The translations under genes and the position numbers were made by a program. This document shows, one piece after another, positions 2 to 9,508 of a stretch of 64,000 nucleotides of DNA. The stretch lies in IMG/VR virus record IMGVR_UViG_3300044959_000131, positions 112,946-176,945 of that record; one strand, 5' to 3'. Below the pieces are notes generated by a model. That model did not search any database and was not told where the DNA came from. It saw only the letters and a list, made by a program, of their open reading frames with translations. How positions within the stretch are numbered: position 1 is the stretch's first letter; every line of letters starts with the position of its first letter. This stretch comes from a virus.

Positions 2-304
2 GAAGTAGATAAGAAAACCCTCTTAATGGCATATGACACGCTTCATAGGTATGCTCCAGAATTTACTGCAGATCCGCTTCTCGGTGGAGCTCTCCTAAAG
101 AACATCTCAGAGCTTCCAAACATGAGTCACAAGACCATTGTCGAACTAATTGGTGCGCAGAAGAATATAGCTGATGCCAAGAGCCGATACTTCTCTGAAA
201 TGTCAAAGCTTTCTCCACTTCTCGTCCCAGACAGCGGTCATACAGAAGTAAGATATGAGGGCGGGGTTGAAAAGTCGAGAACGGTTAGACGTCCAGGTGT
301 CTGA
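2..304 (+). CDS. C-terminal part of a virion/head protein (cut by window start)
   Basis: The frame is open from the first bases of the window and ends at a TGA that shares bases with the ATG of the next gene (TGATG). An internal ATG at 26 could start a 92-residue product, but no ribosome binding site precedes it and the frame stays open upstream, so I read this as the tail of a longer gene. The visible piece is helical and polar with a basic end (EKSRTVRRPGV). Its place directly before the head protease-like gene suggests a portal or another head-assembly protein, but no domain can be recognised. Confidence 0.6.
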   Translation, partial: EVDKKTLLMAYDTLHRYAPEFTADPLLGGALLKNISELPNMSHKTIVELIGAQKNIADAKSRYFSEMSKLSPLLVPDSGHTEVRYEGGVEKSRTVRRPGV

Positions 305-3300
305 TGAAGAAACAAGTTCAATTCAGAGGACATACAGAGTTTGGTGTCTTCTGTCGGTCGCTATTTGGAAGTTCAGGAGCGTTTGAGAAGATTGCTGGAG
401 CTCCTCCTTTTGCTGATTGGCCAACAGGAGAAGAGCTTAGAAAGTACATCTCAAAGATTACCAAAGAGGACCGTAAAAAGTACGTATACGTTCTCGTAAA
501 CGCTCTCGGAGCTGGTGAGTACTTCGGTTGCTTCCCAGCAGGCTCCATTGTTCGTTCTAAGCGAGGAGATATCCCTATTGAGCATGTCGTAGTTGGTGAC
601 GAGGTTCTCACTCACAGAAATAGATGGAGAAGGGTCATTGCAACCAACCGCAAGTTTCATGATCTCGGGTTGGTTCATTTGGATGTCACCGGGGTTCCGC
701 ACTTGGCTCCGGCTATCTCAGCGACCCCGAATCATGAGGTTTTTGTCGTTCCTCGTGACGACTTGTTTCGAGCTCGTAGAGATATTCTCTACAAGCGTGG
801 AGAGATGGATTGGAAATCCTCCTACAATGAATTTGTTTCATCTCTGAATCCAGACTGGATGCCGATTGAGTTCATCCGCCCAGGTGACTTTCTGTTTCAG
901 CCATTTCCGATTGAAACTCGGAATTCAGACTTTGCTCAGAAGTGGGGAGATCATGACTTTGCGTACTTGATGGGACTCTTCGCGGCTGAGGGGTGTCTAG
1001 CAGAGAGGTACGGTCGGGATAGGAACAAGGAACGATCGGAGCTGGTTGAGAGGATTGTTTTCGTCATAGGGGATCATGAAGATCACATCGTCAGGAATGT
1101 ACAGCGCATTGTAGAGAAGCATGGGAGATCTGTGACCGTAAAAAGGACCCCAGAGACCAAATCTATTCGCCTTGAACTTTGTTGGAAGGAGTTGGCTCAA
1201 GCTTGTTTGGAGCACATCGGCTGCCATTCAACCGAGAAGAGCTTGTCTTGGGACATTCTCACAATGCCACATGGGTGGCAGGAGGCTTTTCTAGCTCCAT
1301 ATGTTGAGGGTGATGGACACTTTGTAGAGAACTCAAAGTTTGAGCGGTACAACGGCTCAGTGGTTATATCCACCGCATCTAAGAATCTGGCCTTGGACCT
1401 ACGACTTCTCTACGCTCGTCTCGGGATCGTGGTATCTGTTAACGGACGGCATAATACCAAGGCCACTTGGTACAACGGCAACCCAATTTACACCATTCAC
1501 ATAGGAAAAACGTGGGCCAAAGACTGGAATGGCTCGACTAGGGCGTCAAGCTACATCGATAAGGAACGTGGGTTCATCATTTCACCAGTGAGGAGTGTTT
1601 CGCATGAGAAGTGGTCCGGTGAGGTATTTGACCTGACAGTCGAGGAGGACAGTTCCTATGTTGTGAATGGGATTGTCGTCCACAATTCGAATATCAACGC
1701 GGACTACTTTCCTTGGAATGCTCTTGCGCATGAAGGCGACGACTACGGCTACAAAACGTTCCTGAACGCCCATGCATTTCAGCATCACAAGAACAAGGAC
1801 CCGACTAGGGCTTTCGGAGTCCCAGTTCTCTCGGTGCTGAACCACCCGATGAAGCGTGTCGAGCTCATCGTCAGACTCGACAGAGCAAAGGCAAAGGAAG
1901 AGCAGGCTGACGGCATCATCACTCGTATCGAAGCCGGAGAGTTTCCAGATGTCAGCATGGGCTGCGTCCCCAAGTACGCAAAGATATTGAGGAAGGATGG
2001 ACGTATCGTTCACATCGAGGAGATCCGAGAGGGAGACGAGGTCATATCACATCGAGGACGCGCTCAGAGAGTCGTCAGCACGATGGTCCGCCGTCACAAG
2101 GGAACCATCTTTCACATCAAGCCTTATGGTCACAGAGACGCTCTGATTCTGACCGAGGAGCACCCTCTCTGGATCGTTCGTGCTGAGCAGATGGAGTGCC
2201 GTCCATCTTCGAAATCCATAAATCAGGGTCGGAGACAGCATGTATGCACCCCAGACAGCCATCTCACGAAGAAGGGCTGTTCTGGCTGTTTAACGAGGCC
2301 CTCTTTCAAGTTTGAGTGGGTCCGAGCAGATGAGGTTTCCGAGGGAGACTATCTTGCGATGCCTATTCCGACCTTTGAGGCTGAACGAAAGTTCACAGCC
2401 GTCGAGGCAAGGCTTCTCGGATACTATTTGGCAGAGGGCTACGTCCTAAAGAACAACTCTGGCGAGGCAATCGGGGTCGAGTTCTGCACCGGGCTGAATG
2501 AGATCGAAACCCATGACGAACTTCGTAAGCTCGCCACTCTATCTGGCCTCGCAGATAAAGTCGTCGAGCGAGACATCCCTGAGCGCAATGGAAAATACAT
2601 CGCCATCTGGGATCGGAATCTGGCTGATCTTTGCTCCACTCATTGTGGGAGTGGAGCAAAGACGAAGTTTCTGTCCGCCTCATTGATGGGGGCTGACGAA
2701 GAGACTCTACAGCTCTTCATCGGTGCCTACGCGAACGGAGACGGTGGGTGTTACGAGGGTTCCATCTACTTCTCCACTGCATCGGAGCAACTTGCTGACC
2801 AACTTCGAATCTTATTGGCCCGTCTGCGCTGCATCGCAAGCGTAAACGAGATTGTCCACAAGCCGTCGAAGTTGGTTAATACAGAGACCGTAGAGTTTCA
2901 GGTCCGTGTTGGGAAAGACTCGGCTTGGAGACTTACCGGTTCGAGGTTTTCACCCGGTCGGTCAGAGAAGATCTGTAACAAAAGGTTCTTCTACGATTTC
3001 GAGGGAACGACGTATTTGATGACTCCCATCGAGCGTATCGATGAGGTCGAATACGACGACGATGTCTACAACTTTGGAGTCGAGAACGACGACAGTTATC
3101 TGATCGATGGTTTGGCTGTTCACAACTGTAAAGTTCCTTTTGACATTTGTTCGATATGTGGACAGAAATCCAAGACTAGGCTGGATTACTGCTTCCCACC
3201 TGGGACGCCAATTCTGATGGCCGATGGACAGTTCAAGGCCATCGAGGAAGTTCGAGTTGGTGACGAAGTTATCACCCACACTGGATCTACAAAAAGGGTC

Positions 3301-5328
3301 GTTCGTCTACTACCTAGCACGGCTCACGACGGGCTGATCAAGATTACGGCTTATGGATTTGGAGACATATTAGCTACTCCAAATCACCCATTCATGATTG
3401 GAAGGACAAAGACCGGTGTGAAAGGAGGTCGTAAGGCACAGCTCGACGAGTCGCCGCCAGATTGGGTCGCCGCAGAAGACGTTCAGCAATTCGACACTGT
3501 CTTTCTGCCAATTCCAAAAATTGAGCTCTCCAAGGATTCAAAATACAGCAATGCACGCGTCGGGTGGTTACTCGGGCTCTACCTAGCAGAAGGGTCCCCA
3601 AGCTTCTCTCCTGGTGTCGCGCATCCGAAATCAGTCACGTTGTCAGTCAACGTAAGCGAATCCTTTGAGGACCGCGTCAAGGAAGCCGTAACTTTGATGG
3701 GAGGCGACGCCGCAGACGTTAGCGTCTGCGTATCAGAGGAGCGACACAGCAAGAGTATTCGAATCAACAATAGAGAGATTGCTGAGTGGCTTCTACTGAT
3801 GGGTGGGCGTGGTAGTCACACTAAGACGCTCAATCCTGCAGTTTGGCATCTGGGAGAAGAATTTGCTAGGGGTGTTCTTCTCGGTTGGTGTGATGGAGAT
3901 GGTAGCACTGGTGATAACGTAACAAGGATCGCAACTTCGTCTGAATCCCTTGCGAGGCAGATGCAACTTCTTGCTGCATCTTGTGGGATTCTATCAGGTC
4001 TTAAGCTATACTCTCGTGATACCAATTTCTGCCACCAGGATATTTGGTATCTCACGTTCTCGGGAGATGCCTCGGCGGCTCTTCGTGAGCAACGTCCCCA
4101 GGAAGTTTTTGAGAATCAGTCCAAGCTCTTCTTCTGGAAGAATTACCTCTGCTCTACTGTCAGAAGAGTTGAAGAAGTTCCATACCATGGAGACGTCTTC
4201 AACTTTGAAGTCGAGGATGACCACTCATACGTAGCCGGATGCTTTGCGGTTCATAATTGCCATCACATGATGCCTCCTCCAGAGCTGAGGAGTGTATACG
4301 GACCGAACAAGATTCTCCCCGATGGCCGTCGCATCTACGTCATCAACACGATGCCGAAGTTCTTCGACATCAGTTTTGTATTCATTGGTGCAGACAAGAC
4401 GGCGAAGGTGATGGCCAAGGTGGCATCCGTTGGAAACTCGGTTTGCCTTGGAGAAGTGTGCGCAATACCGAGACCGTCAGCCGTTGTTCACGAGCTCACT
4501 TCATCACCACCTTCTGAAGATGGATTCCGGAAGGTCGCTTCTGCAGATTGTTCTTGCGGATGTGGTGGGCCGTGTGATCCAATGTCAAAGCTTGCCGATG
4601 CGTTTGGTGCCACAAAGGTCGGGGAGATCATCAAGACCGTACCAGCTGGAAACTTTGCCAAGAACATCCTTCCAGCAATTGAGGCTTCAGAACCAGACCT
4701 ACCAAAATCTCTTCTCAATGACCTGGCATCTAGGCACACAATTGGGGAGATTACGGGTCGCGCCGCCTCCCTTGGCATTGTGTTGAAGCCTGTTGAGTTC
4801 CAAAGGATTGTACTTGTAAGGATGGGAAATGGAGAACTGGCAGACGAGCTCGACGACGAGTGCAACGTATTCAGACACGTCCAAGCTGTGGACGACTCAG
4901 TCCAACCAGACCCCCTACTTCCTGAAACTGGTCTCCTTCACCTGCTCCGTCGATTTATCTCAACTCGTTCGGGACTGGGGGAGCCACTCCGGATCCGGTC
5001 TGTTAAAGTTATGCTGGGCGTGAAAAAGCCTCTTCCCACCCGGACGCCGATCGAACATCCTCTACTCGACAAAATCAGTGCCGCCTATAATGGGTATAGG
5101 CGGAACCTTCTGAAGAAACTTTCACAGGTCGAAAACGTGATCTACAACGACCCATCGCTAAGAAAAGAGATCTTGGGGAATCGGTTGTCTAGCTTGTTCA
5201 CAAAGACGGCCAACTCCCAAATCTTGTCTCACGATTCGTTGTCGTACATGATGGGCGCGTACTTCACGGATAGAGGCCTGTTGCTCAATACTGGCATTAC
5301 TGATGTAGTGTCAGGTTTAATGGCCTAG
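304..5328 (+). CDS. Head maturation protease-like structural protein with three inteins
   Basis: The 1674-residue precursor carries three inteins (residues 76-461, 554-941, 963-1318); their removal leaves a host protein of about 544 residues. The joined host sequence reads ...GEYFG-SNINADYFPW...LNHPMKRVEL...DVSMG-CKVPFDICSICG...LDY-CHHMM, the pattern of conserved phage prohead-protease/head proteins with an N-x-N-x-D-x-F box and a four-Cys zinc knuckle. The second and third inteins insert exactly before the first and last Cys of that knuckle. An FEKIA peptide lies at residues 27-31, a motif shared with other virion proteins here. The C-terminal half is helical with a second Cys-rich patch (CSCGCGGPC). 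The start overlaps the previous stop. The inteins and overall frame are certain; the protease role is inferred from the family pattern and from the position before the capsid gene. Confidence 0.75.
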   Translation: MKKQVQFRGHTEFGVFCRSLFGSSGAFEKIAGAPPFADWPTGEELRKYISKITKEDRKKYVYVLVNALGAGEYFGCFPAGSIVRSKRGDIPIEHVVVGDEVLTHRNRWRRVIATNRKFHDLGLVHLDVTGVPHLAPAISATPNHEVFVVPRDDLFRARRDILYKRGEMDWKSSYNEFVSSLNPDWMPIEFIRPGDFLFQPFPIETRNSDFAQKWGDHDFAYLMGLFAAEGCLAERYGRDRNKERSELVERIVFVIGDHEDHIVRNVQRIVEKHGRSVTVKRTPETKSIRLELCWKELAQACLEHIGCHSTEKSLSWDILTMPHGWQEAFLAPYVEGDGHFVENSKFERYNGSVVISTASKNLALDLRLLYARLGIVVSVNGRHNTKATWYNGNPIYTIHIGKTWAKDWNGSTRASSYIDKERGFIISPVRSVSHEKWSGEVFDLTVEEDSSYVVNGIVVHNSNINADYFPWNALAHEGDDYGYKTFLNAHAFQHHKNKDPTRAFGVPVLSVLNHPMKRVELIVRLDRAKAKEEQADGIITRIEAGEFPDVSMGCVPKYAKILRKDGRIVHIEEIREGDEVISHRGRAQRVVSTMVRRHKGTIFHIKPYGHRDALILTEEHPLWIVRAEQMECRPSSKSINQGRRQHVCTPDSHLTKKGCSGCLTRPSFKFEWVRADEVSEGDYLAMPIPTFEAERKFTAVEARLLGYYLAEGYVLKNNSGEAIGVEFCTGLNEIETHDELRKLATLSGLADKVVERDIPERNGKYIAIWDRNLADLCSTHCGSGAKTKFLSASLMGADEETLQLFIGAYANGDGGCYEGSIYFSTASEQLADQLRILLARLRCIASVNEIVHKPSKLVNTETVEFQVRVGKDSAWRLTGSRFSPGRSEKICNKRFFYDFEGTTYLMTPIERIDEVEYDDDVYNFGVENDDSYLIDGLAVHNCKVPFDICSICGQKSKTRLDYCFPPGTPILMADGQFKAIEEVRVGDEVITHTGSTKRVVRLLPSTAHDGLIKITAYGFGDILATPNHPFMIGRTKTGVKGGRKAQLDESPPDWVAAEDVQQFDTVFLPIPKIELSKDSKYSNARVGWLLGLYLAEGSPSFSPGVAHPKSVTLSVNVSESFEDRVKEAVTLMGGDAADVSVCVSEERHSKSIRINNREIAEWLLLMGGRGSHTKTLNPAVWHLGEEFARGVLLGWCDGDGSTGDNVTRIATSSESLARQMQLLAASCGILSGLKLYSRDTNFCHQDIWYLTFSGDASAALREQRPQEVFENQSKLFFWKNYLCSTVRRVEEVPYHGDVFNFEVEDDHSYVAGCFAVHNCHHMMPPPELRSVYGPNKILPDGRRIYVINTMPKFFDISFVFIGADKTAKVMAKVASVGNSVCLGEVCAIPRPSAVVHELTSSPPSEDGFRKVASADCSCGCGGPCDPMSKLADAFGATKVGEIIKTVPAGNFAKNILPAIEASEPDLPKSLLNDLASRHTIGEITGRAASLGIVLKPVEFQRIVLVRMGNGELADELDDECNVFRHVQAVDDSVQPDPLLPETGLLHLLRRFISTRSGLGEPLRIRSVKVMLGVKKPLPTRTPIEHPLLDKISAAYNGYRRNLLKKLSQVENVIYNDPSLRKEILGNRLSSLFTKTANSQILSHDSLSYMMGAYFTDRGLLLNTGITDVVSGLMA
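529..1686 (+). mobile_element. Intein 1 with LAGLIDADG endonuclease domain
   Basis: This is a 386-residue in-frame intein. It begins with Cys (CFPAGSIVRSKRGD), has the block B signature ATPNHEVF, and ends in DSSYVVNGIVVHN followed by Ser as the +1 nucleophile. Two LAGLIDADG helices are visible, YLMGLFAAEG and APYVEGDGHF, so the homing endonuclease may be active. It sits immediately before the conserved SNINADYF box of the host protein, which fits the habit of inteins to occupy the most conserved sites. Confidence 0.95.
1963..3126 (+). mobile_element. Intein 2 with LAGLIDADG endonuclease domain
   Basis: This is a 388-residue intein starting CVPKYAKILRKDGR and ending DDSYLIDGLAVHN, with Cys as the +1 residue. 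Block B is LTEEHPLW. The endonuclease helices are LLGYYLAEGY and FIGAYANGDGG. An insertion between the splicing and endonuclease parts carries extra cysteines (CTPDSHLTKKGCSGC), possibly a small zinc-binding loop. It is inserted just before the first Cys of the host zinc knuckle. Confidence 0.95.
3190..4257 (+). mobile_element. Intein 3 with LAGLIDADG endonuclease domain
   Basis: This is a 356-residue intein starting CFPPGTPILMADGQ and ending DHSYVAGCFAVHN, with Cys as the +1 residue. Block B is ATPNHPFM and the endonuclease helices are LLGLYLAEGS and LLGWCDGDGS. Only 21 host residues separate it from intein 2. It is inserted just before the last Cys of the zinc knuckle, so that Cys serves both splicing and probable metal binding. 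Confidence 0.95.
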
Positions 5329-8389: not shown

Positions 8390-9508
8390 ATGAGCGCTGT
8401 TCCAGCAAGAGTCCTCAACGACCTGTTCTTCGAAAAGGTCGCCACCACAGATGGCAAGGAGAAGATTGCCGAGTTCGGTGGAACATACATCCGAGACCGC
8501 CTGCGTGAGGTATCATTCGCACGCAAGATCCTTCCTCCTCAGCCGGTTCAACGGACTGAGTGTCAGAGGTCTGTGAACCACGACACCTTGGTCAAGATCG
8601 TCGACATCGAGCCAAACTCGAAGGCCGTCGCCTTGACATTCCGTGGCCAACCGACTGCTCGCTTCATCCGTGCTCCTCGTTTCGAGATTCCGTTCTTCAC
8701 GATCTCGTCCGAGAAGTTCGAGAAGACGGAGCAGGAACTTCTGGCTTACGAGATGCCCATCACCAAGATCATCGAGGAGAACTCGGTGAAGGACATCCAA
8801 GAGATCGAGGACCGTCAATTCCTCATCTACGTCGAGGCGGCTGTTCAGGCTATGCAACTCGATGCCAATGGTGGGGTCCCGGCGCCATTCAATGTCTCAA
8901 ACCTTGGAACAACTGTCGCTTCTTCAGTGGTCAAGGGTGACGGTGCAATTGCAGCCGGTGCAAACAACTTCGTCTCATACCCCATCCTGAAGCCGGACCT
9001 CATCAAGCTGAAGAAGCTACTGCACCGCCGCAAGCTGCGTGCAGAGAGGATGATCATCACCGAGCCTGACTACGATGACATCTCGGCCTGGACCATCCAG
9101 GACGTTGGCATGACCATCGCTGGTGAGACCTCGGTCGAGGGATGGAAGGCGTCGACAGTGGTCGGGTTGAAGATCATCCGCACCATCAAGACCGACATCC
9201 TTCGTGAGGGCAACGTGTACTGCTTCACGGCGCCGGAGTTCTTGGGCCGGTTCTACGTTCTGAACCAGACCAAGTTCTACATCGACAAGATTGCGAACCT
9301 CATCACCTGGCAGTCGTGGGAGGACATCGCAATTGGCATCGGTAACATCGCGTCCGTTGTCAAGCTTGAGCTCTACGGAGGATCGGTCACGCCAGGAGCG
9401 ACCGACCCAGGCTACACCTCCAAGCTGCCTGTCGATGAGAGCGACCTCGGTGCAGTGAACAACAGAGCTGATGCAGGACTAACGGTACCAGCAGTAGACC
9501 AGTTCTGA
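8390..9508 (+). CDS. Major capsid protein
   Basis: The 372-residue product has a strong AGGAGA ribosome binding site and is followed by a clear terminator, consistent with very high expression. The sequence has the character of HK97-fold capsid proteins: an N-terminal arm, a charged helix (EKFEKTEQELLAYEMP), a long helix with IQEIEDRQFLIYVEAAVQAM, then a beta-rich C-terminal domain (ETSVEGWKASTVVGLKIIRT, SVVKLELYGG). FFEKVA at residues 13-18 is a KIA-type peptide and could mark the segment removed or bound by the prohead protease. Position after protease, scaffold-like and decoration-like genes supports the call. Confidence 0.85.
   Translation: MSAVPARVLNDLFFEKVATTDGKEKIAEFGGTYIRDRLREVSFARKILPPQPVQRTECQRSVNHDTLVKIVDIEPNSKAVALTFRGQPTARFIRAPRFEIPFFTISSEKFEKTEQELLAYEMPITKIIEENSVKDIQEIEDRQFLIYVEAAVQAMQLDANGGVPAPFNVSNLGTTVASSVVKGDGAIAAGANNFVSYPILKPDLIKLKKLLHRRKLRAERMIITEPDYDDISAWTIQDVGMTIAGETSVEGWKASTVVGLKIIRTIKTDILREGNVYCFTAPEFLGRFYVLNQTKFYIDKIANLITWQSWEDIAIGIGNIASVVKLELYGGSVTPGATDPGYTSKLPVDESDLGAVNNRADAGLTVPAVDQF

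Follow-up and report, generated by a model that had tools for sequence, protein, structure and literature searches.

What does it mean that one phage gene is interrupted by three inteins, the second and third of which are separated by only 63 bases (21 residues) within a cluster of cysteines? Such an arrangement could be a device through which the phage times the maturation of its capsid, or it could be the outcome of mobile elements that have gathered in one gene. We analysed the gene in a stretch of 64 kb, here called the window, which makes up the final part of a virus record in IMG/VR (176,945 bases), and compared it with its relatives. The explanation we favour, with a probability of about 0.92, is that a gp21-like protease gene has independently acquired three class 1 LAGLIDADG inteins, which would be self-excising, selfish and site-specific elements rather than regulatory ones.

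Architecture of the precursor and identity of the host protein

The features of the locus are listed below in window coordinates.

304..5328, plus strand: precursor ORF, 1674 aa, head maturation protease with three inteins (ORF call and PHROG match)
304..528, plus strand: extein 1, spliced residues 1-75 (alignment to intein-free homologues)
529..1686, plus strand: intein a (intein 1), 386 aa, precursor residues 76-461 (splicing and LAGLIDADG motifs)
1687..1962, plus strand: extein 2, spliced residues 76-167, with H109 and S165 (homologue alignment and gp21 fold match)
1786-1788, plus strand: H109, probable catalytic histidine (conservation and analogy)
1954-1956, plus strand: S165, probable catalytic serine (conservation and analogy)
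1963..3126, plus strand: intein b (intein 2), 388 aa, precursor residues 554-941 (motifs, same-site alleles and fold)
2197-2289, plus strand: C79-x15-C95-x10-C106-x2-C109 loop (Cys4 loop), intein b residues 79-109, between splicing block B and the endonuclease
3127..3189, plus strand: extein 3, 21 aa, spliced residues 168-188, with C168, C175 and C178
3190..4257, plus strand: intein c (intein 3), 356 aa, precursor residues 963-1318 (motifs and same-site alleles)
4258..5328, plus strand: extein 4, spliced residues 189-544 and the stop codon, with C189, H191 and D225
4366-4368, plus strand: D225, probable third catalytic residue (conservation and analogy)
8390..9508, plus strand: major head protein gene, downstream of the protease ORF (PHROG 2522, E=2e-12)

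The sequence-only reading had proposed three complete inteins in a head-protease-like gene. The inteins were confirmed at those precursor residues by motifs, by Pfam and NCBIfam and by intein-free homologues, while the nature of the gene was borne out by a PHROG match and a fold match to gp21. Each intein starts with Cys1, carries a TxxH block B (TPNH in a, TEEH in b and TPNH in c), ends in VHN and is followed at position +1 by Ser (a) or Cys (b and c), so that Cys1, block B, the His-Asn end and Cys/Ser at +1, by which class 1 inteins are recognised, are present in all three. Each also has a pair of LAGLIDADG motifs whose acidic residues are intact, namely AAEG/EGDG in a (in full, LMGLFAAEG and VEGDG), LAEG/NGDG in b and LAEG/DGDG in c. 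Pfam identified three LAGLIDADG_3 and three Intein_splicing stretches on the ORF, and the NCBIfam intein_Nterm and intein_Cterm models matched as well. The fold model of intein b (pLDDT 84.5) matched intein structures best (E=7e-17), the closest being TliVMA and PI-SceI; the Hint fold of inteins a and c is taken from Pfam and alignment only. By these motifs, all three are class 1 inteins with a predicted LAGLIDADG homing endonuclease.

Removal of the inteins joins the four extein pieces into a product of 544 residues, which matched the head maturation protease family PHROG 18299 (E=5e-7). Its homologues include proteins of Salmonella phage Arash, Vibrio phages, Bacillus phage G and Gordonia, Rhodococcus, Mycobacterium and Erwinia phages, several of which, in isolated phages, are annotated as prohead or capsid maturation proteases. 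In Arash and in Rhodococcus phage E3 the homologue lies at most a few genes upstream of the annotated major capsid protein, and in the window the major head protein gene downstream places the protease ORF in the head module. The fold of an intein-free relative (L010), modelled at moderate confidence (pLDDT 75), had chains A, C and B of T4 gp21 (5jbl) as its top PDB matches in Foldseek (E 5e-4 to 8e-4, probability 1.00). The link to gp21 comes from this fold search only, as phmmer gave no match for the joined extein in the PDB. The PHROG match and the predicted fold together identify the joined sequence as a head maturation (prohead) serine protease of the T4 gp21 type. When bacterial genome contigs were searched, 8 weak relatives were returned, all on metagenome bins, and no host was found in this way.

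Among 100 distinct homologues in the alignment, H109 and S165 are present in 99-100%; D225 is invariant in 14 aligned close relatives and is replaced by Glu in more distant ones. The triad of the SPN3US protease gp245 is H77/S153/D178 (PMC5694885). By conservation, residue order and analogy with gp245, H109/S165/D225 is likely to be the corresponding triad of the phage protease.

Empty and occupied sites in related phages

The three inteins enter at exact positions. Site a (G|SN; the bar marks the insertion point) lies ahead of an invariant N77-x-N79-x-D81 motif, site b (SMG|C) ahead of C168 and three residues past S165, and site c (DY|C) ahead of C189. Intein-free homologues encode the same three junctions without a gap, as G|SNINxDYF, SMG|CKVPFD and DY|CxHM, hence the pattern of inteins is not due to chance. 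At the DNA level the joined flanks match intein-free relatives base for base at each junction. All three sites are uninterrupted in 105 of the 117 fetched loci (some contigs having been fetched twice), and these include the nearest relatives: the closest (L010), with 86% identity across the first 245 residues, has no gap at any of the three junctions, and the same holds for L011-L013. Arash, Vibrio D181 and others also encode the joined sequence uninterrupted. Thus, the 544-residue product expected from the sequence-only reading stood up to comparison with intein-free homologues, as did the 21-residue extein between inteins b and c. These relatives also provide many natural controls.

At spliced residue 76, which follows site a, about one third of the homologues have A, Q, P, V, D or F. 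Splicing would not be supported with these residues at +1, and alleles that carry them may resist intein a.

The remaining loci carry different subsets. Intein b alone was found in L036, L037, L039, L040 and L074, intein c alone in L060 and L130, intein a alone in L127, and inteins a and b together in L128, while L126 has intein a and its contig ends inside b. Among the matches listed for profiles of each intein in a pattern-based search of viral contigs, only loci with a, b, c or a+b were detected and no second locus with all three; the extein profile scan covered the best 80 of 509 relatives, and rarer combinations of sites could exist. As relatives carry none, one or two of the inteins, these look like independent mobile elements and not like a built-in switch.

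Could the three inteins instead be copies of one intein that was duplicated within the gene? They do resemble one another in being full-length LAGLIDADG inteins of comparable size, and their mutual identity is about 25% (25-28%). On the other hand, they are much closer to alleles occupying the same site in other phages (40-72%): intein a is 40-45% identical to those of L126 (45%), L127 (40%) and L128, intein b is 72% identical to that of L074 and 63% to that of L128, and intein c is 59% identical to that of L060 and 51% to that of L130. In the tree, a, b and c formed separate clades with 99-100% support, and a second site-b lineage (L036 and L040) was recovered. Since the inteins cluster by site and not by genome, they are three independent homing-intein alleles gathered in one gene. 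A recent internal duplication is ruled out by these site-wise clades, and only the ancient common origin that all LAGLIDADG inteins share is left; duplication within the gene is therefore extremely unlikely.

No recent move was seen for any of the window inteins, their closest same-site alleles being only 45-72% identical. An apparent recent gain or loss is seen elsewhere, between L036 and L018, whose exteins are 96% identical while a site-b intein is present in the first and missing from the second. Synonymous sites of the inteins are saturated (pS 0.74-0.85) and pN is low (0.18-0.39), which indicates that the inteins are maintained as proteins by purifying selection.

Site b was also found occupied in a cultured isolate, Eggerthella phage LE2-3 (MW679026), in which the gene LE23_71 is labelled 'tRNA synthetase'. 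Its spliced product matches PHROG 18299 (E=5e-26), and the insertion point of the intein is SMGLN|C, directly ahead of the cysteine preceding CSVC. The label looks wrong, and the gene is an intein-bearing head maturation protease, an example of how easily this protease gene is mis-annotated. With LE2-3 as one of them, at least three intein lineages seem to have entered site b, the placement of the LE2-3 intein being uncertain owing to its long branch.

As the window locus is a single metagenomic copy, known here from sequence alone, the insertions might have lost the ability to splice or the ORF might be an assembly chimera, in which case the gene would be dead or would work as an unspliced fusion. 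This is very unlikely, given one open frame of 5 kb with exact in-frame junctions at three sites, inteins at identical positions in independent phages, intact catalytic residues and purifying selection. Moreover, the head maturation protease is essential in T4-type phages, and before splicing the presumed active-site residues lie on separate extein pieces.

Splicing, the metal site and the case for a switch

Under the favoured reading of three selfish inteins, each endonuclease would probably cut alleles of its own site that lack the intein, within a highly conserved stretch of extein, and repair of the cut would then copy the intein in. After translation, the intact motifs suggest that each intein would excise itself through Cys1 / Asn / Cys-or-Ser+1 chemistry. 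Splicing would assemble the 544-residue protease from the four extein pieces; S165 and D225 would come together again, as would both parts of the metal site. As S165 and D225 are separated by inteins b and c, the protease is probably inactive until splicing is complete. The inteins would persist at a (before NxNxD), b (past the probable catalytic serine) and c (inside the metal site) because imprecise loss at such sites would destroy the enzyme.

The sequence-only reading had described a C-x6-C-x2-C-x9-C cluster forming one zinc knuckle, with inteins b and c inserted at its first and last cysteines. The four cysteines are present, but the last spacing is C-x10-C. Among the 100 distinct homologues, C175, C178 and C189 are conserved in 98-99%, and position 191 is His in 82% and Cys in 13%. 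The putative metal-site motif, metal binding being deduced from the motif itself, is C175-x2-C178-x10-C189-x-H/C191. Intein c indeed splits it, leaving the C175/C178 half on one side and the C189/H191 half on the other, whereas intein b enters before C168, which is not invariant (9 of the 100 have T, A or S there) and lies beside the probable catalytic serine. We rejected a zinc knuckle with C168 as a ligand, since C168 varies and C175, C178 and C189 do not; C168 is a position that is usually Cys, adjoining the probable catalytic serine, and may or may not contact the metal. In the locus carrying intein a only (L127:3797-6649), the protease lacks C175, C178 and C189. All three are gone together, as would be expected of one unit, and the metal site is thus dispensable in some phages.

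A second cysteine-rich element, the Cys4 loop of intein b, is conserved in all three site-b alleles; in the LE2-3 intein a C2H2-like stretch takes its place. The fold model is of low confidence here (pLDDT below 50, residues 80-110). The loop is possibly a zinc-bound DNA-recognition module.

These cysteines bear on the other explanation, a conditional switch in which splicing depends on zinc or redox conditions at the split metal site and, through splicing, so does the timing of protease activation and capsid maturation. Intein c does interrupt a conserved metal-site motif, both b and c combine Cys1 with Cys+1, and the Cys4 loop of intein b is an extra conserved element. Inhibition by zinc or oxidants has been reported for unrelated inteins such as mycobacterial DnaBi1, a cysteine intein inhibited by zinc (PMC7360933, PMC6195587). 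However, cysteine-dependent splicing is in general sensitive to zinc and oxidants, C168 does not qualify as an invariant ligand, and each site is filled independently of the others. Most relatives, the closest included, lack all three inteins, so the protease does not need a zinc or redox gate. The earlier proposal of metal- or redox-responsive splicing tied to capsid maturation found no specific support in the intein-free loci and independently filled sites, and we consider a switch highly improbable. We see an equally slim chance that splicing of the three inteins is a rate-limiting step of infection and is sensitive to zinc or redox state through the split C175/C178/C189/H191 site or the Cys4 loop, which would delay activation of the protease depending on conditions.

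Known systems and other inteins of the phage

Like Sce VMA / PI-SceI, TliVMA and PI-PfuI, the window inteins combine a Hint domain with a two-motif LAGLIDADG endonuclease and occupy conserved, function-critical sites. They differ from these in their host, a phage head maturation protease, in the presence of three alleles in one gene with 21 residues between two of them, and in the extra Cys4 loop of intein b. The inteins of the haloarchaeal MCM gene (PMC10643990) also occupy several nearby sites per gene with site-specific alleles, subsets of which are filled by strain; that host is an archaeal replicative helicase, whereas the window locus encodes a phage head-assembly protease and has all three sites filled. 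The same study argues that adjacent inteins hinder each other's homing (PMC10643990). With all three sites filled and two of them 63 bases apart, the window locus offers a natural test of homing interference and of splicing order.

In the mycobacteriophage intein study (PMC5050341), inteins, mostly of terminase, are likewise phage-borne, patchy and located in active-centre motifs, as are phage ribonucleotide reductase and helicase inteins; a search of that text for 'capsid' and 'protease' found no capsid-protease intein. The gene LE23_71 shares the host protein and the position just ahead of the cysteine before CSVC, but has a single intein that is 28-31% identical to window inteins b and c. 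Multiple neighbouring inteins per gene (PMC10643990) and phage inteins in active-centre motifs (PMC5050341) are thus already known. No report of inteins in a head maturation protease was found in the literature searched, which does not prove that none exists. As far as that literature shows, three points are new, namely the host protein family, the presence of three filled sites, two of which lie only 21 residues apart, and the evidence that this protein is a hot spot for inteins. The head maturation protease appears as such a hot spot in having three exact sites, site-specific alleles and several lineages at one site.

Two more inteins were identified in the same phage genome, outside the window. 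One, of 353 aa, interrupts the terminase large subunit (C1:108212-109270; L158:10213-11271) between GIDWG|C and YQGN|T and is without the usual penultimate His. The other, 305 aa long, lies in a ribonucleotide reductase of the adenosylcobalamin-dependent class II on the minus strand (C1:25559-26473; L159:1560-2474), between MWEN|C and LTCN|C. Together with the three in the protease, this brings the inteins of this phage genome to five.
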